A stretch of 64,000 bases of DNA from a virus. The stretch covers positions 186,001 to 250,000 of the IMG/VR virus record IMGVR_UViG_3300042482_001138; one strand, 5' to 3'. The position numbers and the translations under genes were made by a program. The notes under the pieces were generated by a model. That model saw nothing but the letters and a program-made list of their open reading frames with translations. It was not told the origin of the DNA and searched no databases. The first letter of the stretch is position 1. Every line of letters begins with the position of its first letter. This document shows positions 1,529 to 58,742 of this stretch, in pieces.

Positions 1529-1903
1529 ATGAAAGTTCTGATAATGGAAAATCAACTAATATCTACAGTTCAAGGAATGGTAGATAATACAATTGACGAG
1601 TTCACAAAAGATTGTGAAAATATAGACGCTGAAAATGGGCCACCATATTTATCATTTGATGACTGTGATTTATTGGATAGTCTCGAAGAACTTGAAATTG
1701 TAGAAGTAACAAAAAGTGATCAAAATAAAGGTAAGTACTTACTTTTCGACGCAAAGGTTAATGTTTATTATAGGAATGTTTTTGAATATCAGGACTATAG
1801 TAATTTTTTACATAGTTTAAGATTAAGAATAAAAGAAAAATATAAAATAACTGTGATGTTTACTGTTGCTGATGAAGTAAATAATCAACCAAGAGAATGG
1901 TAA
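1529..1903 (+). CDS. Leader-type small unknown protein
   Basis: 124 residues beginning MKVLIMENQL, a variant of the MKIIITExQ leader class in this window. An acidic helical part (DNTIDEFTKDCENID) is followed by a beta-rich part (KYLLFDAKVNVYYRNV). The ATG lies 5 nt after TATTTATA (1516-1523). First gene of a coupled trio: its TAA overlaps the next ATG as TAATG. Function unknown. Confidence 0.7.
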   Translation: MKVLIMENQLISTVQGMVDNTIDEFTKDCENIDAENGPPYLSFDDCDLLDSLEELEIVEVTKSDQNKGKYLLFDAKVNVYYRNVFEYQDYSNFLHSLRLRIKEKYKITVMFTVADEVNNQPREW

Positions 1904-2520
1904 TGAAAGGTATTATTAGACAAATATTGAATAACGAAATTAAGAATAATTTATATGAAGGAAAACCTTCAAATTATAAAAATATAGAACAACTTAAAAG
2001 ATTTTTTTATAACAAATGGGATAAAGAAAAAAATGAAGGAAAAACACCATCAATTGGGGATATATCCAAATTAGGGTTGAATAGGGCTAAAGATCAAATA
2101 ATTTCCTTATATGTTGAATATATGGGTTATGATTCTGAAATTAGTAAAATCACCGCTATTAAAAAATATTTGACATCGAATATTTTCACTGAAAAAGACA
2201 TTACAGAAATGGATAATTTTAGTGAAGGTAAAATAACTGTAAAATTTGATAAAGTTGATTTTTCCGAATATGAAAGTGATCGTGACAATGTTATGGATTT
2301 AGATGTTAGTTTTATAGTTCTTAATGGATCCTTCTATAATAGTGAAGAAGACGAAATATATAACTTTTCAACTGGAAATAACCCATTTGATGACTTTGTT
2401 ACATATTTTGAGTTTAAAGAAGAAATTGAACAGATTGTGGAAAGTTTTGTTCACAGAACAATAGAAAATTTTGGATTAGATATAAACCGTAATTTTGATT
2501 ATATAAGTGTTAAGTGGTAA
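1903..2520 (+). CDS. Leader protein with predicted cut after E19
   Basis: 205 residues. I chose the ATG inside TAATG (1903) rather than 1897 because it gives the standard opening MKGIIRQILN. The leader contains L17-Y18-E19 followed by G20, an exact match to the (I/L)-x-E consensus with a small residue after it. The rest is a helical region followed by a beta-rich C-terminal half (KITVKFDKVDFSEYE). The C-terminal layout resembles the VGG-family proteins at 2520 and 6342. Function unknown. Confidence 0.75.
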   Translation: MKGIIRQILNNEIKNNLYEGKPSNYKNIEQLKRFFYNKWDKEKNEGKTPSIGDISKLGLNRAKDQIISLYVEYMGYDSEISKITAIKKYLTSNIFTEKDITEMDNFSEGKITVKFDKVDFSEYESDRDNVMDLDVSFIVLNGSFYNSEEDEIYNFSTGNNPFDDFVTYFEFKEEIEQIVESFVHRTIENFGLDINRNFDYISVKW

Positions 2521-3020
2521 TGAAAAAAATCATAAGAAATATACTACATGAAGAAAATAAAAATAGTCGTTTATTATCTGATATGATAGAAAATGAAGGT
2601 CTTCTTATGACATGTAAAAAAGTTGGTGGTATAGAAAGGTTATCAAAAATTTTAGGTGTAAGAGATTATAAAATAGTTGAAAATTATTTTGTTGGAAGAC
2701 AAATATCAACAAATAATTTTGAATTTCCATTAGAAGTTGGGGGATATGATTTTGTTTTTGAAGTAACCCATGTTAATTATGACTTAACTGACGATTTTAT
2801 GGAAATAAGATTCAAAATAGTAGAAGGGGAAGTCACACTTATAATGACAACGGATGAAACTTATGATCTTTTAGGTGATGATCTAAAAGAAAATGAATAT
2901 TTGGTTTGGGAAATAAGATATGAAGTTAGGGAGGTTGTACGTGAATATTTCAAACTATATTTTGAATATATTAGATATAGATTATTTAGCGGTTTAGATG
3001 TTGAAGTAACAAATATGTAA
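2520..3020 (+). CDS. Leader protein, VGG family
   Basis: 166 residues, starting in TAATG at 2520 (MKKIIRNILHEE). Predicted cut after E11 (L-H-E). Residues about 23-50 carry the VGG motif (CKKVGGIERLSKILGV), also found at 6342 and 13832, which looks like a short helix-turn-helix-like segment. A beta-rich domain follows (YDFVFEVTHVNYDLTDDF). Last gene of the trio; a 27-bp palindrome lies just downstream. No function assigned. Confidence 0.75.
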   Translation: MKKIIRNILHEENKNSRLLSDMIENEGLLMTCKKVGGIERLSKILGVRDYKIVENYFVGRQISTNNFEFPLEVGGYDFVFEVTHVNYDLTDDFMEIRFKIVEGEVTLIMTTDETYDLLGDDLKENEYLVWEIRYEVREVVREYFKLYFEYIRYRLFSGLDVEVTNM

Positions 3021-3067: not shown

Positions 3068-4063
3068 ATGAAAAATATTATAAGAGATATATTAAAAGAA
3101 GAAACTTTTTTAATAAGCGAGATAGATATAAAACCATCTCAAGTCGCTTTGGACAATGTATGTAAATCAAAAAAGTTTTGTAATGCTCAAGGTAAAATTA
3201 CATTTGGGCAATTAAGGGAACTTGTAGAAAAAGGTAGACTCAAAAGAATAGGAACACACATTGGAGAAGGTGGTTATAAAGCGACACTTAGGTTGATACC
3301 TTGGTTTATACCACAATTAGCACTTTTAGGTTTTGGAGCAACATGGGTTAGGGTTGCAAACAAAATATTCAGACCAGCTTTAGAAGAAACTACAGGATAT
3401 AAAACATGGTGGGGAAAAACCATAATGAAAATATTTGACATGGTAGAAGGTGAATTAAAGGCCGAAGACCCTTTGTCAAAAATATTTTTCATTTCTGATG
3501 GTTTGATGACAATGTTGGATGAAAAATATAAAGTTAAATTTGCAAATTACATTTCTCAAGTGGCTGATGAAAAACCCAACGATGAAATAGTACCTGATTA
3601 TTTTGTGGAAAATGAATTAAGAAATTGGTTAAATCAAAAGTTTCTTTTGGATCCGCCATTACAACCTAAACAAATTACAACATACGTGGATAATGATACA
3701 AAATCAGAAGTTGAATTAAAAGAAAACAAAGATTCGAATTATGATAAAAAAAATATGGCATCGAAAGTTCTTGATGAATTGAATTTATCACCATGGAAAA
3801 ATGATACCTATGGTATGGAATATTTATCAACACCAGGAAAAACAATTATTTTTTTGAATATCAAACCCGATAAGGAAGTTGTAATATTGGATACAATTTA
3901 TAAAGTCCTGAACAGGATCTTCAAAGAAGAACAGGCACTTGAAAACTTTATTTTCGAGTATATCGAATATTTTGGATTGAATGTAAGAATAGGAAGTTTT
4001 TTAACTATTTCACAAGACGTTGGTACGTTAGAAGAAGATGATGAACCATTAGACTTTGATTAA
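3068..4063 (+). CDS. Leader protein with hydrophobic segment, unknown
   Basis: 331 residues opening MKNIIRDILKEETFLISE, with possible cuts after E11 (L-K-E) or E18 (I-S-E). Near residues 78-100 a hydrophobic stretch (LIPWFIPQLALLGFGATW) could be membrane-associated. The middle is helical and the C-terminus acidic. It follows the palindrome at 3026-3052. I do not recognise the family; virion cargo is inferred from the leader only. Confidence 0.75.
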   Translation: MKNIIRDILKEETFLISEIDIKPSQVALDNVCKSKKFCNAQGKITFGQLRELVEKGRLKRIGTHIGEGGYKATLRLIPWFIPQLALLGFGATWVRVANKIFRPALEETTGYKTWWGKTIMKIFDMVEGELKAEDPLSKIFFISDGLMTMLDEKYKVKFANYISQVADEKPNDEIVPDYFVENELRNWLNQKFLLDPPLQPKQITTYVDNDTKSEVELKENKDSNYDKKNMASKVLDELNLSPWKNDTYGMEYLSTPGKTIIFLNIKPDKEVVILDTIYKVLNRIFKEEQALENFIFEYIEYFGLNVRIGSFLTISQDVGTLEEDDEPLDFD

Positions 4064-4088: not shown

Positions 4089-5303
4089 ATGAACCTGAAA
4101 AATGAACTATTGAGAATTGCTCAACTTTCCAAAAAAATAATTGGTGAAGGTTCATTCAAAATGACTATTATATCAGAAGATAAAAAAGATGATCTTTTAA
4201 AACAGTATGGTGAAGATTATGAATGGTTAATTGATTATTTGTATGATGAAGATCCATCCCCTTCTAAAAAATATGTTAATTGGATGGTCAAAACTTATTT
4301 AAATAACGAGTCAATTGACCAAACCAATATGGCTGGCATGATTCAATATTTTGATAAAAATCAACACAAGTTTCAAAAAAAAGATATCTATCAATACACT
4401 TATGACGAGCTAGTTAGAGCTTATGAACAAGCGTTAACAAAAATTTCGAAAAGAGAAATTTCTTCAGCTGGTGTAGAAAAACTTTATGAAGACGAAAGAT
4501 ATGTTCTGGTAAGACCCAAAAACGAAGAAGCTTCCTGTAAGTACGGTGCAAACACCAAATGGTGTATTGCATCAAGAATGAATAACTATTTTTATTCCTA
4601 CAGCGATGAAAATCTTTTCTTTTTCATAATTGACAAATTGAGACAACCAATAGAAGGAAAAAAAAAGTCTTCTAACTATTTCAAAATTGCGGTTCAATAT
4701 TCGCCTAATAAAGAACTATCTTGGGACCATGGTGGAGTGTCAGATTTTAGTAAACAAATGTTTTTGAAACAAAGTCAAAAAGGTGTTATACAATATTGGA
4801 ATTCGGTTGACGAAAATATTACAAAAAAAACTGTTGAAAAATATTTACCCGATCAACTGTTAAGAACATTTATAGATTTGATTAAAAAACATACATATCA
4901 AGTTTATTTAAATTATTACGAAAAACAATTAGCAGAAAAACAAAAATTTGATTATGATTACTTTAAAAAGTTAAAAAAATCACTTAATACCAAAAAGAAA
5001 AATTTTAAAATCTTTTCTGATAAATATTTCAGTAATCCATCTGTAATTTTTGTGTATCAAACTAATGATTTATACGAAACGTTTGTACATTTTATGAAAA
5101 GTATACAAATGGAACCAAAAACATTCGATGAACTTTTGGAGTTTAAAAAAATTAAAGAAAGATATTACAAAGAAAAAAAAATACAAACTGATTTACAAAC
5201 TCAGCTTAATGATTTATCTGAAGATGTCAAAAGGACCCAAAAAGAATATGATGAACTTCTAAAAATAGCAAAATCGTTGGAATTAAATATAGAATTCAGA
5301 TAA
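4089..5303 (+). CDS. Leader protein with 'SCKYGAxTKWC' phage domain
   Basis: 404 residues. The leader MNLKNELLRIAQ ends I18-G19-E20 before G21, matching the proposed cleavage rule. Residues about 131-240 contain YEDERYVLVRP, ASCKYGANTKWC (C150, W158, C159) and FFFIIDK. I recall this block from many tailed-phage proteins of unknown function. The C-terminal 170 residues are strongly charged and predicted coiled coil (TQLNDLSEDVKRTQKEYDE). The ATG lies 3 nt after TATTTATA. Biochemical role unknown. Confidence 0.75.
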   Translation: MNLKNELLRIAQLSKKIIGEGSFKMTIISEDKKDDLLKQYGEDYEWLIDYLYDEDPSPSKKYVNWMVKTYLNNESIDQTNMAGMIQYFDKNQHKFQKKDIYQYTYDELVRAYEQALTKISKREISSAGVEKLYEDERYVLVRPKNEEASCKYGANTKWCIASRMNNYFYSYSDENLFFFIIDKLRQPIEGKKKSSNYFKIAVQYSPNKELSWDHGGVSDFSKQMFLKQSQKGVIQYWNSVDENITKKTVEKYLPDQLLRTFIDLIKKHTYQVYLNYYEKQLAEKQKFDYDYFKKLKKSLNTKKKNFKIFSDKYFSNPSVIFVYQTNDLYETFVHFMKSIQMEPKTFDELLEFKKIKERYYKEKKIQTDLQTQLNDLSEDVKRTQKEYDELLKIAKSLELNIEFR

Positions 5304-5354: not shown

Positions 5355-5780
5355 ATGAAAAGAATAGTTAGATTAACAGAATCAGATTTGGCTCGTATCG
5401 TTAGACGAGTTATCAGGGAAGAAGCTGAAGGTCAAGGAACAGAAAACAGAGAACAATATTACGAAATGATGAGAAATGGTAAATGTCCTAACGTTGTTTT
5501 GTCATACAAAAAAGATGGTGATTGGTTTGATAATCATACAAGTACATCTTTGTTTGACATGGCTTCTCGTGTAAATGGTTTGGACTTAAGTCAAAAACAA
5601 GGAAATGGTACCCTTGGTGAGTATCTTCTTATGATGGTAAGAAAAGGGAAACATGGTTTGAAATGTGGTAGTAACGGATATTACTTTTTGAAACCTGAAG
5701 AACAAGAAGTGGCTTCTGATGAGTATGGTATCACTAAGAAACTAGAAAGAAAATTCCAAGGACAAGGTGGACCAAGATAA
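5355..5780 (+). CDS. Leader protein, RLTESDL class
   Basis: 141 residues opening MKRIVRLTESDLARIVRRVI, nearly identical to the gene at 33953. Predicted cut after E22 (I-R-E). The mature part is compact (KNGKCPNVVLSYKK, NGYYFLKPEEQEV) and has a short basic C-terminus. It stops directly against the convergent gene at 5781. I recall RLTESDL openings from uncultured environmental phages; function unknown. Confidence 0.75.
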   Translation: MKRIVRLTESDLARIVRRVIREEAEGQGTENREQYYEMMRNGKCPNVVLSYKKDGDWFDNHTSTSLFDMASRVNGLDLSQKQGNGTLGEYLLMMVRKGKHGLKCGSNGYYFLKPEEQEVASDEYGITKKLERKFQGQGGPR

Positions 5781-6341: not shown

Positions 6342-6782
6342 ATGAATAAAGTAAAAAATATTGTAAAAATTATTGTCGAAAGTGTTTCATTACAAGACTC
6401 ATTAAAAAAAATGATTCGTGATTCAGGAATTGTAACAGCGGCAAAAGCTGTCGGTGGCATAAATAATGTTACAAAAATATTAGATATAGATTTTGAAAAT
6501 AAAGACGATGTTGAAATGTTGATCAAAAATTACATTTATTTTTGGAATGATAGCGATGTAGAAATTTCCTTTTTAGAAACACGAACATCAAAAAACGGAA
6601 ACAGAATAATCAATATCCACTTTAATTCAGATAGTAATGCTTCAAATATAGAAAGTTGGTTGGCAAGAACCTTGTCTGACGAAATGAATCAATTTTTTCC
6701 TTTCAGAATAGGGGTTACGTGGGAACCCTTTTTTGCATCTAGAAATGTTAAAATATTTATTGATGCAACAAAACTCAATTGA
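6342..6782 (+). CDS. Leader protein, VGG family
   Basis: 146 residues. The leader MNKVKNIVKIIVE gives I11-V12-E13 before S14. Residues 17-55 hold the fullest VGG motif (AAKAVGGINNVTKILDID), shared with 2520 and 13832. A beta-rich tail follows (NRIINIHFNSDSNASN). Single gene with its own promoter. The motif looks like a small helical DNA- or protein-binding segment; no activity can be assigned. Confidence 0.7.
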   Translation: MNKVKNIVKIIVESVSLQDSLKKMIRDSGIVTAAKAVGGINNVTKILDIDFENKDDVEMLIKNYIYFWNDSDVEISFLETRTSKNGNRIINIHFNSDSNASNIESWLARTLSDEMNQFFPFRIGVTWEPFFASRNVKIFIDATKLN

Positions 6783-6918: not shown

Positions 6919-8484
6919 ATGAAACAAATTTATCTAACAATTTTTTCTGTAATGATGACAGTTTTGTCTTATTCACAGAATTCTTTTTGGACACCTACAA
7001 CATACAGAGGTGCTTTTCCTATAACAGATAACACACCACAAACAGATTGGACTCATGGTTGGTCTAATTGGGATCCACAAAATACACAGTACCCAACAAC
7101 TCAATTGGTAATTAATACTGATGTAACTACTGATGCAACTTGGTCAGGTGTTATAAAATTACAAAACAAAGTTTATATTAAAAATGGTGCAACACTTACA
7201 ATACTTCCAGGAACTATAATTAGAGGTGATTACAATAGTCAAGGAACTCTAATTGTAACAAGAGGATCAAAAATTATTGCTGATGGAAATGTGAACCAAC
7301 CAATCGTCTTTACCTCAAACAATCCTGTCGGAAGTAGAAACGAAGGAGATTGGGGAGGTTTAGTTCTTTTGGGGCATGCCATTAATAATCAACCTGGTGG
7401 TGTTGTTAACATAGAAGGATTACCACCATCTACAAACACTCAACATGGAGGAGGTAATGATAATGATAACTCAGGAGTGTTAAGATATGTAAGAATCGAA
7501 TTTGCAGGAATTCCACTTGAACCAAACAAAGAAATTAACGGATTAACATTCGGTTCAGTTGGAAGTTTAACTACAGTGGATTATGTACAAGTAAGTTTCT
7601 GTGGAGACGACTCGTTTGAGTGGTTCGGAGGAACGGTAAACTGTAAACATTTAATTTCATATTCAACAATAGATGACGATTTTGATACTGACTTTGGATA
7701 CAGAGGTAAGGTTCAATTCGGTTTGGCGATTAGAAATGAAAATTTGTCAGACGCAGCGGGCGACTCAAATTGTTTCGAATCGGATAATGACGCACAGGGT
7801 AGCGCTTCTCAACCATTGACGGCACCTATTTTTTCTAACTTCACGATTATTGGGGCTAAGGGTGATGGGACTGTAATTCTTCCAGTGGGTGAAAAATTTG
7901 AAAAAGCTTTCAGATTAAGAAGAAATACTGCAACTTCTGTTTTCAACTCAATTGCGACAGGATGGGAAAAAGGATTATCTTTAGAGGGTGTTCCTGTTGA
8001 AAATAACATAACTTCAGGTGTTATGAACTTTAATAGTAACATACTTTCAAACTTTAATACTGGGACAGTTTGTTATACAACAACACCAAACTTTCTTTCA
8101 TCTTATTTTTCTCAAAACTTGAATGACTCAACTTTAACGAATCAAGACATCAATTGGGTTAACCCATTTGTTCAAATAGGATCAACACCTGATTTTAGAT
8201 TGAATGGGTTCTCGTTTGCGGCAATTGGTGCCAACTTCCCTTTAAACATATTTGGAAATATTGCGTCAGTCGATGAACTTAATAATGGGTACACAATTTA
8301 TCCTAACCCGGCAACCAATCAAATTACGGTTAATGAAAAAACTAATATCGAAGTTATGGATCAAAACGGGAAATTATTAGTAAGTTCTTTTGATAATCAA
8401 GTTGAATTGATAAATCTACCAAATGGAGTTTATTTTGTTAGACTAAACAACTCCAAGGTTGAAAAGTTAATAATTAGAAAATGA
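6919..8484 (+). CDS. Secreted protein with T9SS type A sorting domain
   Basis: 521 residues. I start at 6919 because it gives a signal peptide (MKQIYLTIFSVMMTVLSYSQ); a longer frame opens upstream. Residues about 80-400 look like a parallel beta-helix or beta-solenoid (VYIKNGATLTILPGTIIRG, GDWGGLVLLG). The last 75 residues are a classic T9SS type A tail: YTIYPNPATNQITV, then LINLPNGVYFVRL. Family knowledge: such tails direct export through the host type IX system and often attachment to LPS. No TATTTATA motif is present; it has its own inverted-repeat region. Probably host-derived; its role for the phage is unknown. Confidence 0.85.
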   Translation: MKQIYLTIFSVMMTVLSYSQNSFWTPTTYRGAFPITDNTPQTDWTHGWSNWDPQNTQYPTTQLVINTDVTTDATWSGVIKLQNKVYIKNGATLTILPGTIIRGDYNSQGTLIVTRGSKIIADGNVNQPIVFTSNNPVGSRNEGDWGGLVLLGHAINNQPGGVVNIEGLPPSTNTQHGGGNDNDNSGVLRYVRIEFAGIPLEPNKEINGLTFGSVGSLTTVDYVQVSFCGDDSFEWFGGTVNCKHLISYSTIDDDFDTDFGYRGKVQFGLAIRNENLSDAAGDSNCFESDNDAQGSASQPLTAPIFSNFTIIGAKGDGTVILPVGEKFEKAFRLRRNTATSVFNSIATGWEKGLSLEGVPVENNITSGVMNFNSNILSNFNTGTVCYTTTPNFLSSYFSQNLNDSTLTNQDINWVNPFVQIGSTPDFRLNGFSFAAIGANFPLNIFGNIASVDELNNGYTIYPNPATNQITVNEKTNIEVMDQNGKLLVSSFDNQVELINLPNGVYFVRLNNSKVEKLIIRK

Positions 8485-10861: not shown

Positions 10862-11803
10862 ATGAAAAATTTAATTAGATCAATACTAAATGAAGAATTA
10901 CACCGTGAAGTTATACATGAATGTACTATAGCTGCGGTAAGACTCGAAGATGGTGTTGTTTTGGCGAAAAATAGAGATCGTGGATATAAAGCAAGAGTTG
11001 AAATCATTCATGAAATAGTCAATGATGTTGAAATGGTTTATTGGAGAGATGTTGACACTGATTGGAGTGAAGGAATGAATGAATTTGGTATCGGGATTGT
11101 AAATTCAAGTTTATTAGTCGTTCAAGACGAAAAGGAAGGTAAAGGGGTTGAAAAAGAAAGAAAATCTGATGGAAAAGATAAGGACAAACCAGCAAAAAAA
11201 AGATTCGCGGCTGACGGTGGTAAAATTAGAAAGGCTCTAACTTATAAAACTTTACCTAAAGTTATCAAATCAATTATTTCTTTCAGAGGTGAAGATAAAA
11301 AAGATGTTGGCCTCAAAGGGGAAACAATAGTGTCCAATAATGAAAATGTTTACGTAGTTGAAATGACCGCAAAACATTCCCCTGTGATCAAAAAATTGAA
11401 AAAAGAATCAAAATTAGTTGTCAGAACTAATCACGGCATTTATCAGAAAAGTGCTGGTTATACCAGTGGTAAAAAAAGAAAATCTTCAGTTTCAAGGATG
11501 AAATTGGCTCAGGATCATCTCAAAGATGTAAAAAATGATATGGATGTTATTGATGCTATGAAAAAGAAATACAAAAAAGATCCATTTTTGAATCCATACA
11601 GAACAAAAAATATGTATCACATGCAAACAACGGGACAAATTATGATGAATCTTGATAAAAAACTTGTTGTTGTAAGAATGGATAATGAAATGGGTGAATT
11701 TGTTGGAATAGAAAACAAACTTCCTAAAGATTATGAACCCAAAATCAAAATCAAAGTCGAAAGTGAAAAAACACATGATAACGGTAAAAAACTACCAACT
11801 TAA
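10862..11803 (+). CDS. Leader-bearing Ntn hydrolase (C45/C69-like)
   Basis: 313 residues. The leader MKNLIRSILNEELHREVIHE ends I18-H19-E20, directly followed by C21. C21 opens an Ntn-hydrolase-like stretch: CTIAAVRLEDGVVLAKNRD (compare C...G-R-N-x-D in choloylglycine hydrolase and acyltransferase families), then EGMNEFGIGIVNSS near 70-83 and RTNHG near 188-192. In these enzymes Cys must be N-terminal to act as nucleophile, so cutting at the leader site would create the active enzyme. Lys-rich insert near 92-115. Substrate (amide or acyl bond) unknown. The family is inferred from motifs. Confidence 0.7.
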   Translation: MKNLIRSILNEELHREVIHECTIAAVRLEDGVVLAKNRDRGYKARVEIIHEIVNDVEMVYWRDVDTDWSEGMNEFGIGIVNSSLLVVQDEKEGKGVEKERKSDGKDKDKPAKKRFAADGGKIRKALTYKTLPKVIKSIISFRGEDKKDVGLKGETIVSNNENVYVVEMTAKHSPVIKKLKKESKLVVRTNHGIYQKSAGYTSGKKRKSSVSRMKLAQDHLKDVKNDMDVIDAMKKKYKKDPFLNPYRTKNMYHMQTTGQIMMNLDKKLVVVRMDNEMGEFVGIENKLPKDYEPKIKIKVESEKTHDNGKKLPT

Positions 11804-14934: not shown

Positions 14935-14948
14935 CATAATTATATAAT

Positions 14949-16477: not shown

Positions 16478-16478
16478 T

Positions 16479-16886: not shown

Positions 16887-16887
16887 T

Positions 16888-18168: not shown

Positions 18169-18169
18169 T

Positions 18170-18247: not shown

Positions 18248-18255
18248 TATTTATT
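18248..18255 (+). promoter_or_regulatory. TATTTATT late promoter motif
   Basis: 32 nt before the ATG at 18288, the longest spacing in the set. Confidence 0.4.
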
Positions 18256-18287
18256 ATACATAAAGGATAACAAATCAAAAGACAACA

Positions 18288-19231: not shown

Positions 19232-19257
19232 AATAATATAACACATTCACTCATTAC

Positions 19258-20981: not shown

Positions 20982-20984
20982 AAT

Positions 20985-50136: not shown

Positions 50137-50372
50137 ACGAATATAATCACATAATAAAACTTATGTCAGATTTTACATTTGAAGACACAAGTAATGAAGA
50201 ACTTGGTGAACAAGACGCACCTGCTGGTGGGGGGTCCGCAGCAGCACCTTACCCTACAGTGACAAAGTGGGAAACAGGACTTACTAGAAGCGTTGCTAAT
50301 CAAATTGATAGTAAAGCAAAGTGGAAGGAATTATATAAAATAACAAGAGGAAAGGCTAACACACTTATATGA
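50133..50372 (+). CDS. Small leader protein, TTG start
   Basis: 79 residues from TTG 50133 overlapping the previous TGA; an ATG at 50163 is an alternative. MNEYNHIIKLMSDFTFEDTS then NEELGE (L-G-E, cut after E26, then Q), then an Ala/Gly/Pro-rich stretch and a helical C-terminus. ATGA-coupled to the large gene 50369; possibly its partner. Confidence 0.6.
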   Translation: MNEYNHIIKLMSDFTFEDTSNEELGEQDAPAGGGSAAAPYPTVTKWETGLTRSVANQIDSKAKWKELYKITRGKANTLI

Positions 50373-52567
50373 AAGATATTGATAATATAATTCTTAAATC
50401 GCTAAATCTAATCAGTTATGATAGGTCAAAACATGTAACAGAACAGGTTGTCCCAAAACAACCTGGATTAAACACATTTACATTTAACCCAAAAACCGGT
50501 CGTTTTGAACCACCAAAATCCCCATTTGATACTATTATTAAGACACCATCAATAGACGATTTTATAAAGAGTCAACAACCTAAAAGGGAAAAAATAAATG
50601 ATGAAGATGCAATTCCATATTCAACATTTAAAAGTGTGGTGAATAATAAAAATATTTATTTACCAAGTAGGATAGTAAAACAAAAAGGTAAGACTAAATT
50701 TGTCACACCAAACATAATTAAAAAAGTAACTACAAGTGAGTCATATGACCCCAAATTAGCAGAAGAATATTTTGGTTCACAATGTTCTAAATTATCAGGA
50801 AATCACCCAAAATATAACGTTGGGTACTATAAACAATTAGATTATTATATTGATGATTCAGGAAATCAATGTACTCCTATACCCTACAAAGTAATATCAA
50901 AAGAAGTTGTTAAAAAAGGTCAAAAAACACCAAGCGTCATAGAGACAGACGTTTGGCAAAATGATTTATCTAAACCGATAACTTTAAAAAATGGTAGTAC
51001 CATTCAAAAAAGTAAGTATAAATATCCTCAAGGTTGTAAACCAATACCTTATGATACCTGTCTTAGATATTCTTGGAAAAATTTACATTCATTTGGAGCA
51101 CAAAATGATGGAATTTTAGAGTTTGAAAAAGAAACTTATGATGGAGGTTCATCTAAAGGATCTGTTGGAGGTTTTGAGCCAACAAGAACAAATACAACCA
51201 AAATAAGTTATGGTGCTTGTTTAAGTGATGATTGGTTTCCGTGGTTATCAAATTTTGTCGGGTACTTACCAAAGACCCAAATAAAAGTACAGACAGATTC
51301 TGCCGGTAAAAAACAGATTACTAAATGTATTAGAAGAAATTATTCAACAACCGGAGTTGATTTAGTTGAAAATAATTTAAAATCATATAATTTAAGTTCG
51401 GGGGTTGGTACTCTTTTACCTGTTCCATACGATAATGTTCTTCAATTTCCATTAGATTTAGCAGTAAAAGAATCTACAGGTTCGGCATACAAAATAAATG
51501 CTAACTACATAGACTACACGATAGATTTAAATCAATGGTTTGTTTGGGGTAACGCCGACTATAAAACATATAAAGTAGATGCTAACATAGATTTCCAAGA
51601 ATACTTGAATAAAGGTGGTAGTGAAAAAGATATATATGATGATTATTTGAAAGATTTATATGGGGATAGTAAAACTTACAAATTCTTTGGAAAAGAATTT
51701 AATCTATTTGGTAAAGAAGAACTTGGTATTGACGGATTGGAAAAAATGATCAATGATGAAAAAACTGTCGATGGTTTAGAGTCAAAATACAAAGATGTAT
51801 CGGAAAGATTTATAGGTAAAGAAGATTATGTCGGGTATTTGGTGCAATTGTCCACAGATTACAATACTGAAAAGGCAAAACCAAGACCAAATGAAGTTGT
51901 AACATCTTTTTTAGAATTACAATGGAACACAACATTATCGATAATAAGAATGTCTTTAGTTTATCCAATTTACAAAAGATTGGTCCCCGATGCAACAATA
52001 GATGAATTTACGATTTCTTACCTTTCATATTTATTTGGCATAATATCCGATGATAATGCGGCGAAAGAAAGTGTTAAAACATCACGAACCACCCCAAGTT
52101 TTCTAAGTAAAACGGCTATTGGAATAAACAAACAATTGAATCCTTCGAATGATTCTGAAACGGCAAAAACTAATGATTATTACGCGTCTTTTTTGATGAA
52201 CGAAAAAGGAATATGGGAAACTATTAAAAAGTATCCACTTATGGTCCCAAGTGATTATGCACAATACAACAAAAAAAATGTTAAACCTGTCACAATTCTT
52301 GACGCCAAAGACAGGGCAAAATCTGACGGTAAAACTAATGGTTATTTATGGAATACACAAACTGTACAAGACGTACAAGCGGGAACTCCGGTTGAAATGA
52401 ATAATTTTTTATATAAAAGTTTATACTCAGATGGATCTCAATCTCAGTCAAGTGGTAGTGGTGAATTAAGTGACGCGGACATTCAAACCATGATAGATGC
52501 TTATGAATCTTTTGACAAACAAATAGAATCTATAATAAAAAATACAATTGTTTTAATGGGTAGATAA
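50369..52567 (+). CDS. Giant leader protein 1 (732 aa), unknown
   Basis: Opens MKDIDNIILKSLNLISYDRS then KHVTEQ (V-T-E, cut after E25). Several Cys-containing segments (FGSQCSKLSGNHPKYNVGYY, QGCKPIPYDTCLRY) and a Tyr/Asn-rich beta-looking middle; the C-terminus is Gly/Ser-rich and then helical. No recognisable enzyme domain. First of four consecutive very large leader proteins, arranged as a likely operon, suggesting a virion or ejection module. Confidence 0.7.
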   Translation: MKDIDNIILKSLNLISYDRSKHVTEQVVPKQPGLNTFTFNPKTGRFEPPKSPFDTIIKTPSIDDFIKSQQPKREKINDEDAIPYSTFKSVVNNKNIYLPSRIVKQKGKTKFVTPNIIKKVTTSESYDPKLAEEYFGSQCSKLSGNHPKYNVGYYKQLDYYIDDSGNQCTPIPYKVISKEVVKKGQKTPSVIETDVWQNDLSKPITLKNGSTIQKSKYKYPQGCKPIPYDTCLRYSWKNLHSFGAQNDGILEFEKETYDGGSSKGSVGGFEPTRTNTTKISYGACLSDDWFPWLSNFVGYLPKTQIKVQTDSAGKKQITKCIRRNYSTTGVDLVENNLKSYNLSSGVGTLLPVPYDNVLQFPLDLAVKESTGSAYKINANYIDYTIDLNQWFVWGNADYKTYKVDANIDFQEYLNKGGSEKDIYDDYLKDLYGDSKTYKFFGKEFNLFGKEELGIDGLEKMINDEKTVDGLESKYKDVSERFIGKEDYVGYLVQLSTDYNTEKAKPRPNEVVTSFLELQWNTTLSIIRMSLVYPIYKRLVPDATIDEFTISYLSYLFGIISDDNAAKESVKTSRTTPSFLSKTAIGINKQLNPSNDSETAKTNDYYASFLMNEKGIWETIKKYPLMVPSDYAQYNKKNVKPVTILDAKDRAKSDGKTNGYLWNTQTVQDVQAGTPVEMNNFLYKSLYSDGSQSQSSGSGELSDADIQTMIDAYESFDKQIESIIKNTIVLMGR

Positions 52568-52568: not shown

Positions 52569-55076
52569 ATGAAGAATAGTTTAGAACTAAAAATATTGAA
52601 AGAAAATAAACAAGCCATCAACGAAATTGCTCCATTAGTTTGGGGCGCAATAGTTGTAGGTGGCGCATTGGCGAGTTATTTGGGATATAATGCGGCGACA
52701 AAAAGTCATGAAGATCAGGAAATGATAAAAAATGACAAAGGTTTTTTTGTTGATGAAATGTGGGTTGGTGAAAATTTTAAGATAACATATTATACAGGAA
52801 GTGAAGAACCATATCAGTTAATGAGTTTCCCACCAAACGTTAAGGGTTGGGAAGTTTTTGGTGATGATTATGGGACTTATATAAAGATAAAAGGTAGTTC
52901 ACCAAATGCGGAGAATGATCTAAGAGTATATCTTCCAAAAAAAGAATGGTTTAATCAATTTAAGGGTAAAATTAAAACTATTACAGATTACAAAGCAGGA
53001 TCAGAAGAATCAAACACTTACAGTCTTTGTTTTTATCTGAAGAACCCACAAAAAGCAATTAAAACCAAGGTTTTGAGACCAGATGGGTCAACATTTTTTG
53101 GTCCACCTGACGAAGCTTTAAATATTAGTAAAACAGAAAGTATTGACGATCCAAGTCGTGGTTGGGCGGTATTAGAAACATATAAACAAAGTGGTTACTT
53201 TTCTATGAAAGGTGATGTTTTTTCTGATTTGGCAGAATCAAAAACCCCTCCCAACAATTTAGTGACTGAATCAAATATTTTTGAAGAAACTGGTTCTGTC
53301 TCATATTATTCCGCCTTTCCAGAAAAATATCAAGAAAAGAAAGATAAAGAAGCACGTGAATCTTATTCGAATTCTTTAAAACAAAAACTTACTGATTTGT
53401 CGGCTAATCCACCAAGTGGACTACAGGAATATCAATGGAATACATATGGTCAAAAATACGCTGGAAGTGAATTTGATAATTGGTATGATAGTTCATCAGG
53501 CACTTTTGTTGTAATTGGTATGCAAATTTGTGCTTCTATCGCATTTGCCCCATTGGCCGAATATTTTGCCTTAAGAGCAACAAGTGCTGCGGCATATGCC
53601 GCTTGGAACATAGGTGTTCAAGTGGCCGGTGAATTAATATTTAGTGTGTGGGAAGCGATATATCTGTACAATCGTGGTTTAACAAGTCAAGCGGGGCTGA
53701 TCATGTTTTGTTGTTTACTTCCCGTTTTTTCAGAAAGCATGATGTTTGGTAAATTAATAGGAAGACCACCAGGATTTGATGACGCTATAAAAGATTTGGC
53801 CTATAAATTTGGATCAGGTTCTTTTAGTAGTCCAGCAGACTTCAAAAGGTGGTTCAAAGCTTTAGATCCGGCTTTACAGAAAGAATTACAAATGTCTATG
53901 ACATTAGCGTCACAATATTATAGTAAAGCAAGTACTAAAAGTATTGCAAAACAACTTGGTGAATCCATGGCTAAGGCGATTGACGACATTGAAAAAACAG
54001 GTATAAAAGGGGAAGTAGATTTAATGAAAAATTGGGACATAGGTCTTAGTGGTGTTGAGTTATTAAAAAAGAACCCAACTATAAAAAAATATTTAGTAGC
54101 AAAATCATCATTGAAGGATCTTAAGAATTTAGCCGCTATAGTTGGAGGATATTCAAAAGGAAAAAATTTATTATTAAAAGGTTTAGGTTTGAACTTATTA
54201 ATGGTTGGTGGTGTTATATTTCCAATATGTACATTTGCAATAAAAGACAATGAAGAATTTATAAAAGATCCACAAGGTATATTAAATGGTGCTGAAATGG
54301 GTATTGCGTCTTTCAAGAATCAAAGCCCTAAAAACGCTAAGAAATTTGAAGATCAAGTCACTGCATTTGTTAATAAAATGAAAGATGAAAAAGATGTTGA
54401 CAAGGCTTTACAATACGCAAAAGAATACATCCAAATTTTGGTAGAATTAGATTTCATAAGTAAAAACGGTAGTTGGGGTGATAAAAAGAAACAATATCAC
54501 AAATTTATTGAAAATTATAAAAAGGTTGTTTTGGCTGAAAATCAGGCATTATACTACCAAGGTTTACAAGAAAATAATCGTGATAAAACAGTTAATTCAT
54601 TAAAGGTTTTAGAAAATATTAGTGTTGACACAAAAAATAAAACTGTTCTTGCAATAATTAATGGAACACCAAGTTCTTATAAAAAAGTACAAAGTGGTTA
54701 TATAGATTCAGAAGGTGTAAATCACGTACCAAACAATGATGAACTTATAAAGTTTTTTGAATGGTTTTCAGGGTACAATATTAAAACCAAATCAATAACT
54801 AATTCAAACCCATATCAAGTTTCAAACAACGTAACATTTACTGCAAAATTCACTTTTCAAAAACCTGACGGTACTCCCATGGAAAAAACAAGGGAATTCA
54901 ATAACCAACTTCTGATCAATATGTGTCAGTCGTCATTTAATAACCCAACCCCTGGTTTTAATTTAGATGTGAACTTTGGTGATCCAGCGTCTAGTAATTA
55001 TTGGGGTAATATATATTTTGTTAGAAAAATTTTTACAGACTATTATGATGATTATTTGTTAAGTAAAAAAAAGTAG
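52569..55076 (+). CDS. Giant leader protein 2 (835 aa), membrane-associated
   Basis: Leader MKNSLELKILKENKQAINE (I-N-E, cut after E19), immediately followed by a hydrophobic segment (IAPLVWGAIVVGGALASYLG). Further hydrophobic stretches near 315-400 (VVIGMQICASIAFAPLAEYF; LIMFCCLLPVFSESMM) and 535-560 (LNLLMVGGVIFPICTFA). The remainder is helical or beta with no recognised motif. The pattern fits a packaged protein inserting in the host membrane, as inference. Confidence 0.7.
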   Translation: MKNSLELKILKENKQAINEIAPLVWGAIVVGGALASYLGYNAATKSHEDQEMIKNDKGFFVDEMWVGENFKITYYTGSEEPYQLMSFPPNVKGWEVFGDDYGTYIKIKGSSPNAENDLRVYLPKKEWFNQFKGKIKTITDYKAGSEESNTYSLCFYLKNPQKAIKTKVLRPDGSTFFGPPDEALNISKTESIDDPSRGWAVLETYKQSGYFSMKGDVFSDLAESKTPPNNLVTESNIFEETGSVSYYSAFPEKYQEKKDKEARESYSNSLKQKLTDLSANPPSGLQEYQWNTYGQKYAGSEFDNWYDSSSGTFVVIGMQICASIAFAPLAEYFALRATSAAAYAAWNIGVQVAGELIFSVWEAIYLYNRGLTSQAGLIMFCCLLPVFSESMMFGKLIGRPPGFDDAIKDLAYKFGSGSFSSPADFKRWFKALDPALQKELQMSMTLASQYYSKASTKSIAKQLGESMAKAIDDIEKTGIKGEVDLMKNWDIGLSGVELLKKNPTIKKYLVAKSSLKDLKNLAAIVGGYSKGKNLLLKGLGLNLLMVGGVIFPICTFAIKDNEEFIKDPQGILNGAEMGIASFKNQSPKNAKKFEDQVTAFVNKMKDEKDVDKALQYAKEYIQILVELDFISKNGSWGDKKKQYHKFIENYKKVVLAENQALYYQGLQENNRDKTVNSLKVLENISVDTKNKTVLAIINGTPSSYKKVQSGYIDSEGVNHVPNNDELIKFFEWFSGYNIKTKSITNSNPYQVSNNVTFTAKFTFQKPDGTPMEKTREFNNQLLINMCQSSFNNPTPGFNLDVNFGDPASSNYWGNIYFVRKIFTDYYDDYLLSKKK

Positions 55077-55122: not shown

Positions 55123-57216
55123 ATGGAAAACAAAGCTTTAGAAATTTTAAAAATTAAAAAACTGATGGGTCTTACATCGAAACTAAATGAAGGTTTTTAT
55201 GGGACCAACAAATTACTATTGATGGAAGAAACTGGTTATGGTGAAGCCATGGATATATATAAAAGATTACTTAGAAAAACCACACAAGCACTTTCAGAAG
55301 AAGAAAAAAGATATCTAAAATCACTTATAGATGAATATAACGCAAGATTTGCAGATGAAGCCGGAAGTATCAATTTCGAAGGTAAAATGACACCTGACAT
55401 CAGACTAAGATTAAATGGGTTTTTGGCTGCTGAAACTTCAGACATGATTACAAATGTGTTTGATGGTGCCATAAGAAGAGCTGAAAGACAACTTGTAAGT
55501 CAAAATGCTATTGATCAGATGAAACTAGCAAATGATTTTTACGAAGACATTATGGGAAGACCGATAAGTGACGATGTATTGAATGCTGATGGATCACCAA
55601 TAAGCATATTAGATACTTTAAAATTTATTTATCAAAAAGGTGGGGTTAGAAACTCATCGCTACCCTTAGACTTTCAAACAATACTAAGAAATGAATTGGC
55701 AGCAATTTCCCCTATGTTGGATGAAGTTACGCCTGTAAGAAAGTATGTCGATGATGTAATTGATCAAATTGATGAAATAGAAGATCCATCAACTGTAAGA
55801 TTGGCTCCGGCAGAAGAAATTGCCGTTATTACTAATAACATAAGCGGAATCAAAAACTCATTAGAAAATCCAATTGAGCAAGTTACATTAGATTTAACAG
55901 ATGATTGGAGAATATCGTTTGACGAGGATGACCTTGGTTTAGGAAGAACACCTAACGAAGTAAGGAAACAAGCAATTGATGCTGTCATGAGAGACATGGA
56001 ATCCAAATGTAAAGTAGGATTTTGTAAAACTATGGTCGCTTATTATAAAAAAGACAGTAAAAAATTTAATGATATGTGGGCTTACATATATCAAAAACTT
56101 GAGAGTGGGATTAAACCAGTTGCAAGAGCGGAATTCGAAGCGGGTGCACCTGCGGCTTTGATAAACGAATATGAACTTATTTTAAAACAATTCGAAAAAC
56201 TTGACACACCTTTAACACCTAATGATTATATTAAGTTAGGTGAAGAAATTTATACTAAAATGAAAGAGACTGGACAGTTGGGTGTTTTCGGTGGTACTTT
56301 TTCACCTCTAACATCAGATATAAGGGTTTTTACGAGTAAAGACATGTTATATCGAACTCTTGGATATGTTACATTAGGATCAGACCCATTTAAGGGTGGG
56401 TGGACTTTCCAAGGGATGTGGTCCAGATGGTGGAAAATGAACCTTATATGGTTCCCAATAATATTTACAAAAAATTTAATCGATGCTGGTAAAGGTAGTG
56501 ATGATCCTACAGAAACTGCGTTAGAACAGTTTGGTGAATTACTTTTGAATACCGCCAAAAACACGGCATTATTAGGTTTAGCACCAGGACCAAGAGTATT
56601 TTTTGAAGGCACAATATATTTCTTAAATCAAAAAATGAAGGGTTCAAAATACGTTGATTACCCAACTCTTGTTGATTATTTAAACAAACAACATGGTTGG
56701 ACTGAAAATCAAGTTTATGATAATTTAATTAATAAAGGGTTAGTTAGGACATTCAGAGATAGAACTCCAGCTTACACACAAATTAGTGGGGCAACGGATG
56801 TATATGCTGTTGCTAATGGGAAATATGAAATTGTTAATGAAACATATGTTGGCGGAATCATAAATCCAAAAATTGTATTTACACCTGAAGGTCAATTAAC
56901 ACCAAAAAAAGAAGAAAAAACCGCAAAAATTGATAGAGAGGCAAGAACAGAAATAAAAGAACTAATTGCAAATGAATCATTCATATCTGATTCCATAGGT
57001 TTAACATTACTTAAAAAGAAAAATATAGATTTTGATCGTCAAGAAACTGTTGATGATGGAGGAACCAAAGTAACAATTTTAGTTTATAAAGCGGTAAACA
57101 CCCAAGATGCAAAGGCAGAAATTAGTATCAATTATGATGCTTGGATTGCAGCTCAAAAACCAGAAATTAAAACTGAAGAAAATTTCAATAAATACGTCAA
57201 GATAAAATTAATATAA
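55123..57216 (+). CDS. Giant leader protein 3 (697 aa), unknown
   Basis: Leader MENKALEILKIKKLMGLTSK then LNEG (L-N-E/G, ideal site, cut after E23). A second candidate L-M-E occurs near residue 36. Largely helical first half (YKRLLRKTTQALSEEEKRYL), hydrophobic segment near 450 (WWKMNLIWFPIIFTKNLI), beta-rich C-terminus. TAATG-coupled to 57216. Not recognised. Confidence 0.7.
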   Translation: MENKALEILKIKKLMGLTSKLNEGFYGTNKLLLMEETGYGEAMDIYKRLLRKTTQALSEEEKRYLKSLIDEYNARFADEAGSINFEGKMTPDIRLRLNGFLAAETSDMITNVFDGAIRRAERQLVSQNAIDQMKLANDFYEDIMGRPISDDVLNADGSPISILDTLKFIYQKGGVRNSSLPLDFQTILRNELAAISPMLDEVTPVRKYVDDVIDQIDEIEDPSTVRLAPAEEIAVITNNISGIKNSLENPIEQVTLDLTDDWRISFDEDDLGLGRTPNEVRKQAIDAVMRDMESKCKVGFCKTMVAYYKKDSKKFNDMWAYIYQKLESGIKPVARAEFEAGAPAALINEYELILKQFEKLDTPLTPNDYIKLGEEIYTKMKETGQLGVFGGTFSPLTSDIRVFTSKDMLYRTLGYVTLGSDPFKGGWTFQGMWSRWWKMNLIWFPIIFTKNLIDAGKGSDDPTETALEQFGELLLNTAKNTALLGLAPGPRVFFEGTIYFLNQKMKGSKYVDYPTLVDYLNKQHGWTENQVYDNLINKGLVRTFRDRTPAYTQISGATDVYAVANGKYEIVNETYVGGIINPKIVFTPEGQLTPKKEEKTAKIDREARTEIKELIANESFISDSIGLTLLKKKNIDFDRQETVDDGGTKVTILVYKAVNTQDAKAEISINYDAWIAAQKPEIKTEENFNKYVKIKLI

Positions 57217-58742
57217 TGTCATCATTTAAACTTTCCAAATTGATACTCGAAAGAGATGCTAAACAAAAACCAAGTACTTGTGGATCAAATGCTGCCGTAG
57301 AAACCAATCAGACAAATTTTGGTACTTACCAGATGAAATCAACAGAGTATATTACATGGAAAGAAAATGAAGGATTTACTGTTTATTACTATTATTGTAA
57401 AAAACCATCAGGTTCTAATCCACCTGTAGTACCACCTGTAGTACCACCTGCGGGTGAAAAATGTCCAGAAGACGAAGGTTATGTTACAAAAGAATTTCAA
57501 GAATGGGTATGGAAAGTTAAAAATGGATTTTTAGAAACTGATAAAAAAAAGACAAAACTTTGTGGAGGCGCAAAATGTGACTATAAAACTGCGGTTGATG
57601 GTGATTGTGGTCCTAGTACAAAAACACTATGGAAAGATGAAACGTTAAAACAGGAATTTATTTCTTACAAAAAACAAAATCCTGTCATAACACCTGACCC
57701 AATCGTACAACCAAATACTGAAGAACAAAAAATCGCCGCATGTAAAACTAAAAATTTAGAATACGATAAAGCAACCGATCAATGTGTTGTCCCAAAACAA
57801 GAATTAGATCCTGATGCACAACTATTAAAAGATCAGATGCAAATTTATAGAAATATTCTTAATAGATTTACTGACTCAAAAGGATGGACTAATGTGGATT
57901 CTTTATCACCGGGAAAATATATACCGGCTAATTTAGATATTAACATGTTGGAACAAATAACAAACCAAATTGTTTCATTAATCAAAAGAAAATCACGGTC
58001 AAAAGATTATGGTTTGTTTAAAAAATTAATGTCATCTCTATCAACGGCTTATAATGTTGAAAAGTACAAAGATTTCTTTTCAAAACAAATTGATCCTGAA
58101 TCAACAGGTGATGTTTTTGAAAAAATTAAAGGATTTATCGCTAAAATTGATACACAAGCTCAAGAAACCCAAGACGCATATAATTTTGATCCATTAACAA
58201 ATCCTGAAGAAGTTGATGTTAGAAATTTTATTTATACAGGACAATTTTTAAGCGTTTACAAAGTTGGATCATTAAATCTTATGATGATGGTTTATTTCTA
58301 TAATAGCGATCAACGTGTAAAAGGTAGTAAGGTCGGTTTTGACAAACTGTGGCAACCAAAAGAAGATTATTGGAATGAAAAACCTGAAGTTTTGAAAAAG
58401 GTTTATGATATTTATAAAACAGTACATGGTAGTTATACTTTTGATAATTGTAAAAAAATATTGGGGGCTTACAAAGATACTATAAACAGTATTGAAGATA
58501 GAAAATTATATTCTGAATCACCAAGACTAAAAGAACATGTTAAATATGAAATTCAAAAATGTTGGTGTGGTGATCAATACAAAGAATTGGGTAAATTGGG
58601 TGTAAAAAACATGTTTGACGTTGAAATGAAAAAAGATAGAAAAGAACTTATAAAATTTTTGAATTCGTTAGGTGGAGCAACATGGGGAGATTTTGGTATA
58701 GATTTTTCAACTGCCTGTGGTGAGTTTGAAGATTACAAGTAA
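57216..58742 (+). CDS. Giant leader protein 4 (508 aa) with possible PG-binding domain
   Basis: Leader MSSFKLSKLILE (I-L-E, cut after E12). A Pro-rich linker (SNPPVVPPVVPPAGEKC) leads to FQEWVWKVKNGFLETDK and AVDGDCGPSTKTLWKD, which resembles PG_binding_1 repeats (F-Q...N-G...D-G-x-x-G-P-x-T). The C-terminal 250 residues are helical with Cys pairs (YEIQKCWCGDQYKELG). Could bind peptidoglycan during entry; fold call is moderate. Confidence 0.7.
   Translation: MSSFKLSKLILERDAKQKPSTCGSNAAVETNQTNFGTYQMKSTEYITWKENEGFTVYYYYCKKPSGSNPPVVPPVVPPAGEKCPEDEGYVTKEFQEWVWKVKNGFLETDKKKTKLCGGAKCDYKTAVDGDCGPSTKTLWKDETLKQEFISYKKQNPVITPDPIVQPNTEEQKIAACKTKNLEYDKATDQCVVPKQELDPDAQLLKDQMQIYRNILNRFTDSKGWTNVDSLSPGKYIPANLDINMLEQITNQIVSLIKRKSRSKDYGLFKKLMSSLSTAYNVEKYKDFFSKQIDPESTGDVFEKIKGFIAKIDTQAQETQDAYNFDPLTNPEEVDVRNFIYTGQFLSVYKVGSLNLMMMVYFYNSDQRVKGSKVGFDKLWQPKEDYWNEKPEVLKKVYDIYKTVHGSYTFDNCKKILGAYKDTINSIEDRKLYSESPRLKEHVKYEIQKCWCGDQYKELGKLGVKNMFDVEMKKDRKELIKFLNSLGGATWGDFGIDFSTACGEFEDYK

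Follow-up and report, generated by a model that had tools for sequence, protein, structure and literature searches.

The stretch of DNA analyzed here, called the window throughout, comprises 64,000 nucleotides (bases 186001-250000) of the 274,138-base IMG/VR virus record IMGVR_UViG_3300042482_001138 (G000), in which a simple coding-score caller delineated 320 genes. Forty genes of the window begin with short leader sequences, most of them of recurring kinds, each carrying the motif (I/L/V/M)-x-E within the first 36 residues and each followed by a protein portion that we call the cargo. We consider it very likely that these leaders are capsid-targeting propeptides of the kind known from phage T4, which a prohead protease of the S77 family would cut after (I/L/V)-x-E. 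More broadly, the sequence comparisons make it a well-supported proposal that the system is a form of T4-style capsid targeting and processing that has been expanded and made modular. The T4 precedent, as given in excerpts of the reports cited, is the capsid-targeting sequence of IPI-III and Alt, a 10-19-residue N-terminal propeptide that is removed by gp21 after L/I-X-E (PMC9026906, PMC3012670).

The 40 listed genes include 30 recognized by sequence profiles (at least 20 bits, five classes) and 10 recognized by eye; for five of the 40, we placed the start codon manually at the leader. In 38 genes the early motif is (I/L)-x-E. These counts agree with the initial annotation, which had proposed at least 33 such proteins and four more with V or M in the first position; its statement that both strands are involved also holds, since two of the listed genes (44579-45109 and 47994-48614) lie on the minus strand. 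Some members are weak, namely g278, g288, g216 and g285, with one plain site each, and g226, whose sole site is L-Q-E at residue 5. By eye, the leaders are charged, amphipathic stretches, unlike the signal-peptide-like starts of other genes in the window. Among window proteins of at least 70 amino acids (aa), 47 of 77 have (I/L)-x-E at residues 8-32. Within-protein shuffling yields 24.8 +/- 3.7, and none of 1000 shuffles reaches 47, so the chance occurrence that had been named as a possible refutation does not reproduce the pattern. Internal windows in the same test carry the motif in 28% of cases. The control motifs (I/L)-x-D, -K and -N occur at chance level at residues 8-32, and both (F/Y/W)-x-E and (A/S/T)-x-E fall below chance there (11 versus 18.1 for the latter). 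A comparison that makes no use of the motif gives 54 similar pairs among the first 45 residues of 247 proteins of at least 100 aa, whereas residues 46-90 give nine and the final 45 residues give 11. Only three of the 54 pairs match elsewhere in the protein as well, and a few are signal peptides or paralogues. The leader observation is confirmed as real and far beyond chance.

Five leader classes can be distinguished, which in shorthand read MNLQENIxRIKxMMGLxTE (class A), MKxIIRxILxEE (B), MKxxIITExEKxRILxMH...LKE (C), MKRIVRLTESDLxRIVRRVIxE (D) and MKIIITESQxxxL (E). Together they cover 44 genes of G000, 30 of them inside the window; of the 14 leaders matched by profile elsewhere in the record, five lie within 7 kb of the left edge of the window. 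False matches number between zero and one per class in 204 internal windows and between zero and four in 3200 shuffled N-termini.

Two of these classes were followed into other viral contigs. With residues 1-12 fixed and residues 13-22 left free, a class D pattern matches at least 119 stretches of viral contigs, and a class A pattern matches 65. Removing open reading frames (ORFs) with duplicate first 80 residues reduced class D from 154 to 137 and class A from 81 to 56; class D figures throughout hold among the matches listed. Of the 137 distinct class D ORFs, 98% have I, V or L at residue 20 and 93% have E at residue 22, although the search constrained neither position. The position between them is variable (entropy of 2.7 bits at residue 21), and entropy is 0.44 bits at residue 22, 3.13 bits at residue 23 and about 4 bits by residue 27. 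Consequently, (I/L)-x-E is found at residues 17-25 in 128 of 137 class D ORFs, versus 5% of control windows, and at residues 15-25 in 52 of 56 class A ORFs, versus 11%. The initial annotation had described the cargos as unrelated, and they fall into 88 clusters for class D (126 complete ORFs) and 29 for class A (50 ORFs), incomplete or short ORFs having been dropped before clustering. Conserved class D residues are specified by several synonymous codons (for T8, ACA 80, ACT 39, ACC 10 and ACG 8), and therefore it is the peptide that is selected; some class A codons vary little (I7 is ATA in 54 of 56). Neither the class D nor the class A pattern has an exact match in 84,980 bacterial and archaeal species genomes, and so, for these two of the five classes, the leader may mark such viruses fairly cleanly. 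A tblastn search of GenBank phages with two 24-residue leaders and the 697-aa protein of the window returned nothing, which is no evidence of absence because short queries may be below the reach of the tool.

The same cargo can stand behind different leaders. Scanning 5065 ORFs of relatives with the five profiles (leader cut-off 10 bits, ORFs not deduplicated) revealed 602 leader-bearing ORFs in 205 loci, versus 11 matches in 1761 internal windows; most of these loci were found by leader patterns or a sheath search and hence are no random sample. In 530 of the 602 ORFs, (I/L/V)-x-E stands at the end of the profile match, versus 21% of control windows. When 642 leader-bearing proteins were grouped by cargo, leaving aside proteins shorter than 75 aa, we obtained 383 families; 128 are multi-member families, among which 27 combine different leader classes, with the proviso that some class assignments (for example A versus B) are soft. 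An instructive case is the gene at 16479-16886 (plus strand), in which the class A leader MNLQENISRIKQMMGLLTE is followed by GLHDTYW. In the relative L234 the leader is MNIIISESQYNKLFEYKTIRLQKE, and it is followed by GLHDTSW. A five-sequence alignment of this family shows that, besides M1 and N2, the invariant columns begin with E19, G20, L21, H22 and D23. AlphaFold2 predicts residues 1-20 with a pLDDT (predicted local distance difference test) score below 50, including a low-confidence helix at residues 3-18 of the one leader modelled, followed by a mostly confident fold (mean 78.4 overall). The cargo appears ParB- or sulfiredoxin-like, these being its nearest matches in the Protein Data Bank by Foldseek, with weak scores (best E 1.8e-3). 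The leaders are thus shown to form a module that recurs and is exchanged between cargos. Its conservation extends as far as (I/L/V)-x-E, and swapped cargos begin at about this point.

A T4-style interpretation also involves a suitable protease and head. Profile searches of G000 itself did not find the S77 protease, portal or gp23 families, and a PHROGs comparison of 20 likely structural or replication proteins of this record gave no capsid, portal, terminase or prohead protease match. Two longer records, G001 (290,887 bases) and G002 (290,710 bases), match the 697-aa protein of the window and the sheath at 100%, and from their identity in the proteins compared we take them to be longer records of the same phage. 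Both encode a portal and a protein matching Peptidase_S77 (PF03420) at 80.7 bits (cut-off 27). The prohead protease sought by the initial annotation is thus present in this phage, outside the window. In the locus L102, taken from G001, the order is terminase, portal, a 240-aa protein, a 155-aa protein, the S77 protease (80.9 bits), an acidic 585-aa protein in the place of the scaffold, and the gp23 capsid protein (Pfam, 248.3 bits). The sequence EL(N/D)HP is present in 15 of 15 aligned proteases; these proteases, from 17 loci, were chosen by their SSRG motif, whose own conservation therefore reflects that choice.

The capsid protein and the scaffold carry the same type of motif. Among 12 distinct capsid proteins, pattern-picked from 23 loci, (I/V)-x-E occupies the same aligned position ahead of the conserved core in all 12 (10 INE, one VSE, one VTE), and the capsid protein of this phage has I-N-E followed by A. 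We take this to be the T4 cleavage position, on the basis of the T4 sequence. When 194 proteins are ranked by whole-length excess of (I/L)-x-E, omitting proteins shorter than 150 aa other than those of the head module, the scaffold ranks first (18 sites versus 8.3 expected, z 4.0), with the capsid protein (z 2.9) in fifth place, a 358-aa head protein in seventh and the 240-aa core-like protein (z 2.6) in ninth. The portal (z -1.3) and terminase (z -0.7) show no excess. This distribution is a line of evidence independent of the leaders. For T4, excerpts of two reports describe scaffold and core proteins that are cut to pieces and a portal that is left unprocessed (PMC9026906, PMC5694885). A leader-like C-terminal end of the 358-aa head protein (L102, 14576-15652) was considered and set aside because it is not kept in the relatives L103, L119 and L128. 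Of 15 leader-bearing records longer than 200 kb among the matches listed for the class D and class A patterns (G001 and G002 excluded), 13 have an S77 protease and the same 13 have gp23 above cut-off; one of the two records lacking S77 has a sub-threshold gp23 match (12.1 bits). The 268,739-base record G016, which holds L225, carries two S77 and two gp23 genes about 200 kb apart, one pair nearer to those of Flavobacterium phage immuto, and represents either an assembly artefact that fuses two phages or a phage with a duplicate head module.

With regard to the first description of this DNA, the comparison to T4 extends further than proposed, as it also fits the gene order, the capsid maturation site and the scaffold excess. 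That account did not notice that the leaders fall into classes, that they are swapped between cargos, that sites also occur inside proteins and ahead of C-terminal modules, or that related viruses have hundreds of such genes. Its T4-style interpretation is supported, while packaging and processing as such keep the status of proposals. By analogy with T4, we infer the following sequence of events. The short N-terminal stretch, mostly an amphipathic helix as judged by sequence, would bind the prohead core during head assembly. The S77 prohead protease of the phage would then cut after (I/L/V)-x-E, freeing mature cargo into the head, from which it would presumably be ejected along with the DNA. 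Some polyprotein cargos may additionally be cut into pieces at internal leaders or (I/L)-x-E sites.

Several known systems resemble this arrangement in part. As in T4, there is an S77-type protease, a capsid protein with (I/V)-x-E at the aligned maturation site, and a short N-terminal stretch ending in L/I-X-E with unrelated cargo behind it, which here is a pattern in sequence. Unlike T4, for which a handful of such proteins are reported, 54 genes of one record are involved (44 by profile and 10 by eye), with five classes, leaders exchanged between cargos, an internal leader, and cut motifs ahead of C-terminal modules. Excerpts of two reports describe phages of the phiKZ type in which many head proteins are cut after glutamate by a gp21-like protease, 19 of them in 201phi2-1, and SPN3US, in which eight of about 50 head proteins are processed (PMC9026906, PMC5694885). 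Like the system proposed here, phiKZ, 201phi2-1 and SPN3US combine processing after glutamate with ejection proteins in the head. However, according to those excerpts their propeptides are often much longer than those of T4, several exceeding 100 residues, the phiKZ motif is S/A-X-E, and no leader families on unrelated cargos are described, although the SPN3US paralogues gp53 and gp54 share identical first 15 residues. The below-chance result for (A/S/T)-x-E, the nearest motif tested, indicates that phiKZ-type sites are not what is found at the leader positions. Phage P1 DarB likewise has an N-terminal packaging signal, its first 30 residues sufficing to route a reporter into the capsid (PMC9024508), but this is one protein, and the excerpt mentions no (I/L)-x-E cut site.

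Other explanations for the shared starts must be weighed. The leaders might remain uncut and serve purely for targeting, whether into the virion or to some other structure made by the phage, with (I/L/V)-x-E being only the end of a binding helix. TES, TEN and SEE are typical helix caps, and the one modelled leader is helical, albeit at low confidence, yet class D retains I/V/L and E while the residue between them varies, and a plain helix end need not match the I/V-x-E found at the capsid site and in the scaffold excess; we judge this possibility improbable. A destination other than the head, for instance the host envelope or a compartment for phage replication, might seem to be favored by three cargos of peptidoglycan-hydrolase kinds (M15/VanY, M23 and NlpC/P60). 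Other proteins of the window have ordinary signal peptides by eye, two of them with type IX secretion tails, and T4-type gp23 and S77 accompany the leaders in 13 of the 15 large records, which leaves such a destination very improbable.

Two further explanations concern the gene rather than its product. The nearly identical starts of neighboring genes at 12943-16886 would fit recent copying of gene 5' ends by gene conversion or duplication, with no targeting role. In 110 class D and 48 class A loci, however, the residues persist while their codons differ (less so at some class A residues, as noted above), and leader class differs inside the 27 cargo families, and so we give this view scant credence. 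Because the leader is located at the 5' end of the gene, it could instead be an element acting on translation or at the level of the mRNA, such as in ribosome loading, with the peptide incidental. Third codon positions vary at conserved residues such as class D T8, and a leader stretch occurs inside the protein encoded by g296, both of which render an RNA-level role barely credible.

The proposal of cleaved capsid-targeting leaders has its own difficulties, and the following points count against it. The profiles were hand-seeded from genes of this genome, and leader counts within it are for that reason partly circular; a leave-one-out test, in which 40 of 44 leaders score at least 8 bits on profiles built without them (class B is weakest, 5 of 8), answers this only in part. 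Enrichment outside the window is marginal (64 of 204 proteins versus 54.0; 52 of 1000 shuffles), and being strong in the window it indicates that the leaders are concentrated there. The expected (I/L)-x-E is missing in nine of 137 class D and four of 56 class A ORFs. Five of the 18 scaffold sites lie within a tandem acidic repeat, two proteins not expected to be substrates (g290 and the GMP-reductase-like g276) rank third and fourth in the whole-length comparison, and head proteins of 438, 448 and 155 aa have no excess. Co-occurrence with S77 is weak support because this protease is expected in any T4-like phage. Some cargos reach 835 aa, a large size for ejection. Compared by eye, the classes of the window have no close likeness to the T4 signal. 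Moreover, open-licence PMC texts yielded no virion proteomics or mass spectrometry of such proteins; nor did they yield any report of such leader sets in phages of Bacteroidota or in huge T4-like phages.

Some genes appear to encode more than one cargo. The clearest example is g296: its residues 106-124 form another class D leader (17.9 bits), and in L270 and L177 the cargo downstream of that leader is preceded by an N-terminal one. A scan for internal leaders (at least 6 bits) matched classes D, C and A once each and classes B and E not at all, a yield as low as that of shuffled proteomes; g296 alone stands out, and other internal leaders are argued from homology of the cargo behind them. In the gene at 16888-18168 (plus strand; class A leader MNLQESIRRILRE then D, profile), which has more than one cargo stretch, an internal RILREE (17203-17220) precedes a DYSPAGKE cargo that is found directly behind N-terminal leaders in L225, L239 and L247. 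The gene at 13832-14587 (plus strand) starts with MNLQENIP of class A, matched by profile, followed by two cargo stretches, and the second is preceded by KLQENIRRLSRE (14108-14143; 6.9 bits, which is noise level). By eye, a cargo resembling this second stretch stands behind an N-terminal leader at 6342-6782 (plus strand; MNKVKNIVKIIVE, recognized by eye) and in the homologous ORF of L284, whose leader is MKKLIRHTLKE. As a multi-cargo gene it seems a weaker case than g296 and 16888-18168. In g045, an Fe/Mn superoxide dismutase domain lies between (I/L)-x-E sites noted by eye. In a 710-aa protein at L003:13403-15535 (minus strand), residues 167-355 comprise Fe/Mn superoxide dismutase domains, which are flanked by other stretches and (I/L)-x-E sites.

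The motif also precedes certain C-terminal modules. For CWKGY modules, a single residue separates (I/L)-x-E from the C in each of 11 contexts. The module RCWKGYTQKGMKTMFGKKYPNCV follows ITE at 12858-12938, and RWSQKYKRSIDCNNPKGFSQKAHCQGRKK follows LSE at 26638-26727 (both plus strand, by module comparison). These two are small, basic and Cys-containing; one is common to unrelated proteins of relatives, and one is shared with cyanophages. The SIDCNNPKGFSQ module behind LSE in 26092-26730 also occurs in cyanophages S-SM2 and Bellamy, in proteins that start with MKTLKQFLKE and MKSFKQFQE, respectively, the latter having the module alone behind the start. The S-SM2 start resembles the T4 signal. 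Among four cyanophage regions viewed, T4-like starts are evident in the S-SM2 and Bellamy proteins, and none is shown in the other two. A further point against the capsid-targeting proposal is that the shared module is preceded by F-R-E in S-SM2, F-Q-E in Bellamy and A-K-E in S-CAM9 rather than by I/L-x-E. CGR...YPKC modules were rejected as further C-terminal units, as the motif is ahead of them in none of eight cases. We infer that some genes encode several cargos split by leaders or (I/L)-x-E, with products that would be cut apart. On the strength of g296, 13832-14587, 16888-18168, g045 and the CWKGY modules as candidates, one can envision a delivery code by which huge T4-like phages sort dozens of injected proteins by a few interchangeable leaders, with polyproteins cut inside the head, a generalization for which we see the chances as even.

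Flavobacterium phage immuto (NC_055915; host Flavobacterium sp. LMO8) is a cultured relative that makes the leader reading testable. It has annotated S77 and gp23 genes, IVSE at the capsid site and, by eye, repeated starts of its own, such as MENFDLKKFLVENKLTxNSKxLKE and MKKQILSEQFxRMQxLAGIITES, many of them at 102-126 kb near the head genes. Candidates for packaged proteins of immuto include one annotated as a cobalamin adenosyltransferase (117631-118632) and hypothetical proteins encoded around 102-113 kb. Its genome-wide enrichment of (I/L)-x-E is modest (61 of 191 versus 46.4 +/- 5.4). The majority of huge-phage genes lack an assigned function. If the proposal is true, the leaders mark proteins carried by the virus into its host, the injected proteome of uncultured phages could be listed from sequence alone, and hundreds of orphan genes would become candidate early effectors, anti-defence proteins included. 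Precedents are found among the T4 internal proteins: excerpts report that IPI inhibits a restriction enzyme, that IPIII is required on E. coli ECOR17 (PMC9391042), and that the IPIII signal spans 10 residues (PMC9026906). The findings further suggest that phages evolve injected cargo via module exchange, and the leaders might serve as natural tags for loading proteins into phage heads.

The remaining leader genes are given here in order along the window; they lie on the plus strand and were matched by profile unless otherwise indicated. At the left end, three class B leaders stand at 1897-2520 (MVMKGIIRQILNNEIKNNLYE, cargo of unknown kind; weak, with no (I/L)-x-E before residue 21), 2520-3020 (MKKIIRNILHE then E) and 3068-4063 (MKNIIRDILKE then E), the latter two without a Pfam match. 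They are followed by 4089-5303 (MNLKNELLRIAQLSKKIIGE, by eye, no Pfam match) and 5355-5780 (class D, MKRIVRLTESDLARIVRRVIRE then E, also in the leave-one-out test). The class B leader MKNLIRSILNE at 10862-11803 precedes a cargo that may be AAT/Ntn-hydrolase-like (Pfam AAT 22.5 bits, below the cut-off of 23.2). At 12054-12941, the class B leader MGLNESIYRIIRE then E precedes a DUF2237 cargo, in which position 1 of the DUF2237 profile corresponds to residue 19, behind the leader. Class A leaders follow at 12943-13353 (ending FLNE then S), 13353-13835 (MNLQENIQRIKEMMGIIVE; HAD deoxyribonucleotidase-like cargo, PHROG 2643 E 1.2e-15, no Pfam match), 14949-15731 (ending LVTE; cargo TNPYKVEWLEP...) and 15728-16477 (ending IINE; start moved upstream). 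Class B leaders with LRRxD-type cargos are present at 14593-14934 and 18288-18611 (MSLKKIIRKVLIQE then S). By eye, the small proteins encoded at 14584-21290 include a family that shares an LRR(x)D-like stretch close to the N-terminus; some have a leader and some do not, which provides natural pairs for comparison.

Further along, the genes at 21450-22163 (MELNRFKQLLESSLGDVRPLISE then Q) and 25261-25767 (METNRFKQLLESTLGNVKPLISE then Q) have a common start, recognized by eye. Class E leaders begin the genes at 22524-22850 (MKIIITERQ), 22852-23181 (MKIIITENQ; start moved downstream), 24038-24658 (MKIIVTESQLRRYLVKE then S; VanY/M15 peptidase cargo, Pfam VanY from residue 37; start moved downstream), 28197-28748 (MKFIINENQ) and 28745-29602 (MKIIISEKQYRALKSKFLNE then N). 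The class C leader at 26092-26730 ends QYLKE then NEDEWID and is replaced by a class D leader in L180, and another class C leader at 29679-30710 ends NIIKE then E. The gene at 33953-34273 has the class D leader MKRIVRLTESDLTRIVRRVISE then Q (also by leave-one-out). Two peptidase-like cargos lie behind class C leaders, one at 35915-36652 (ending GLNE then S; Pfam M23 from residue 74, E 1.8e-21) and one at 36938-37621 (ending SYISE then E; Pfam NLPC_P60 from residue 95, E 1.3e-17; GTG start moved upstream). Between and beside them are 36654-36941 (class D, MGHIRISERELINTIKKIINE then N) and 37625-37939 (class C-like, weaker). The leader at 39156-39791 (MKKVISEELNYIKYLFDYKKGVVISE then Q) was recognized by eye. 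Two class D cargos have relatives with other leaders: that at 44579-45109 (minus strand; MKVFKISESDIRRIARKVLNE then E) in L210 and L213, and that at 45184-45558 (MINESTIKKLIHKIINE then E), for which swap comparison revealed class B and E leaders. The weakest leader, MDFEQILLE then D, was found by eye at 46992-47591, and a class E leader (MNIIITESQYKYILLE then E) begins the minus-strand gene at 47994-48614. Finally, four large proteins have leaders recognized by eye: 50369-52567 (ending HVTE then Q, no Pfam match), 52569-55076 (MKNSLELKILKE, then NKQAINE, then I; no Pfam match), 55123-57216 (MENKALEILKIKKLMGLTSKLNE then G; class A profile just 8.4 bits) and 57216-58742 (MSSFKLSKLILE then R, no Pfam match).

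Leaderless genes of the window include GMP-reductase-like, FKBP-like, UmuC-like and thioesterase-like genes and, by eye, glycosyltransferase-like genes after 58877, and therefore the leader is not a general trait of the neighborhood. The GMP-reductase-like gene (45559-46524, minus strand; PRK05458 396.6 bits, above cut-off) adjoins the thioesterase-like one. By PHROGs, G000 encodes UvsX-like, replicative-helicase, single-stranded-DNA-binding, connector and baseplate proteins, and its sheath is 29-36% identical to those of GenBank T4-like phages among the matches listed. The closest cultured relatives by capsid are a Microcystis phage (43%) and immuto (41%). Secreted proteins at 6922-8484 and 41073-43529 have sorting tails for type IX secretion, a route known from Bacteroidota, both above cut-off (type A, TIGR04183, 38.7 bits; type B, TIGR04131, 47.9 bits), and the phage seems to exploit a secretion route of this type. 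These tails, together with the cultured capsid relatives just named, point to a probable Bacteroidota host. Eleven consecutive tRNA genes occupy the right end of the window (62552-63997).

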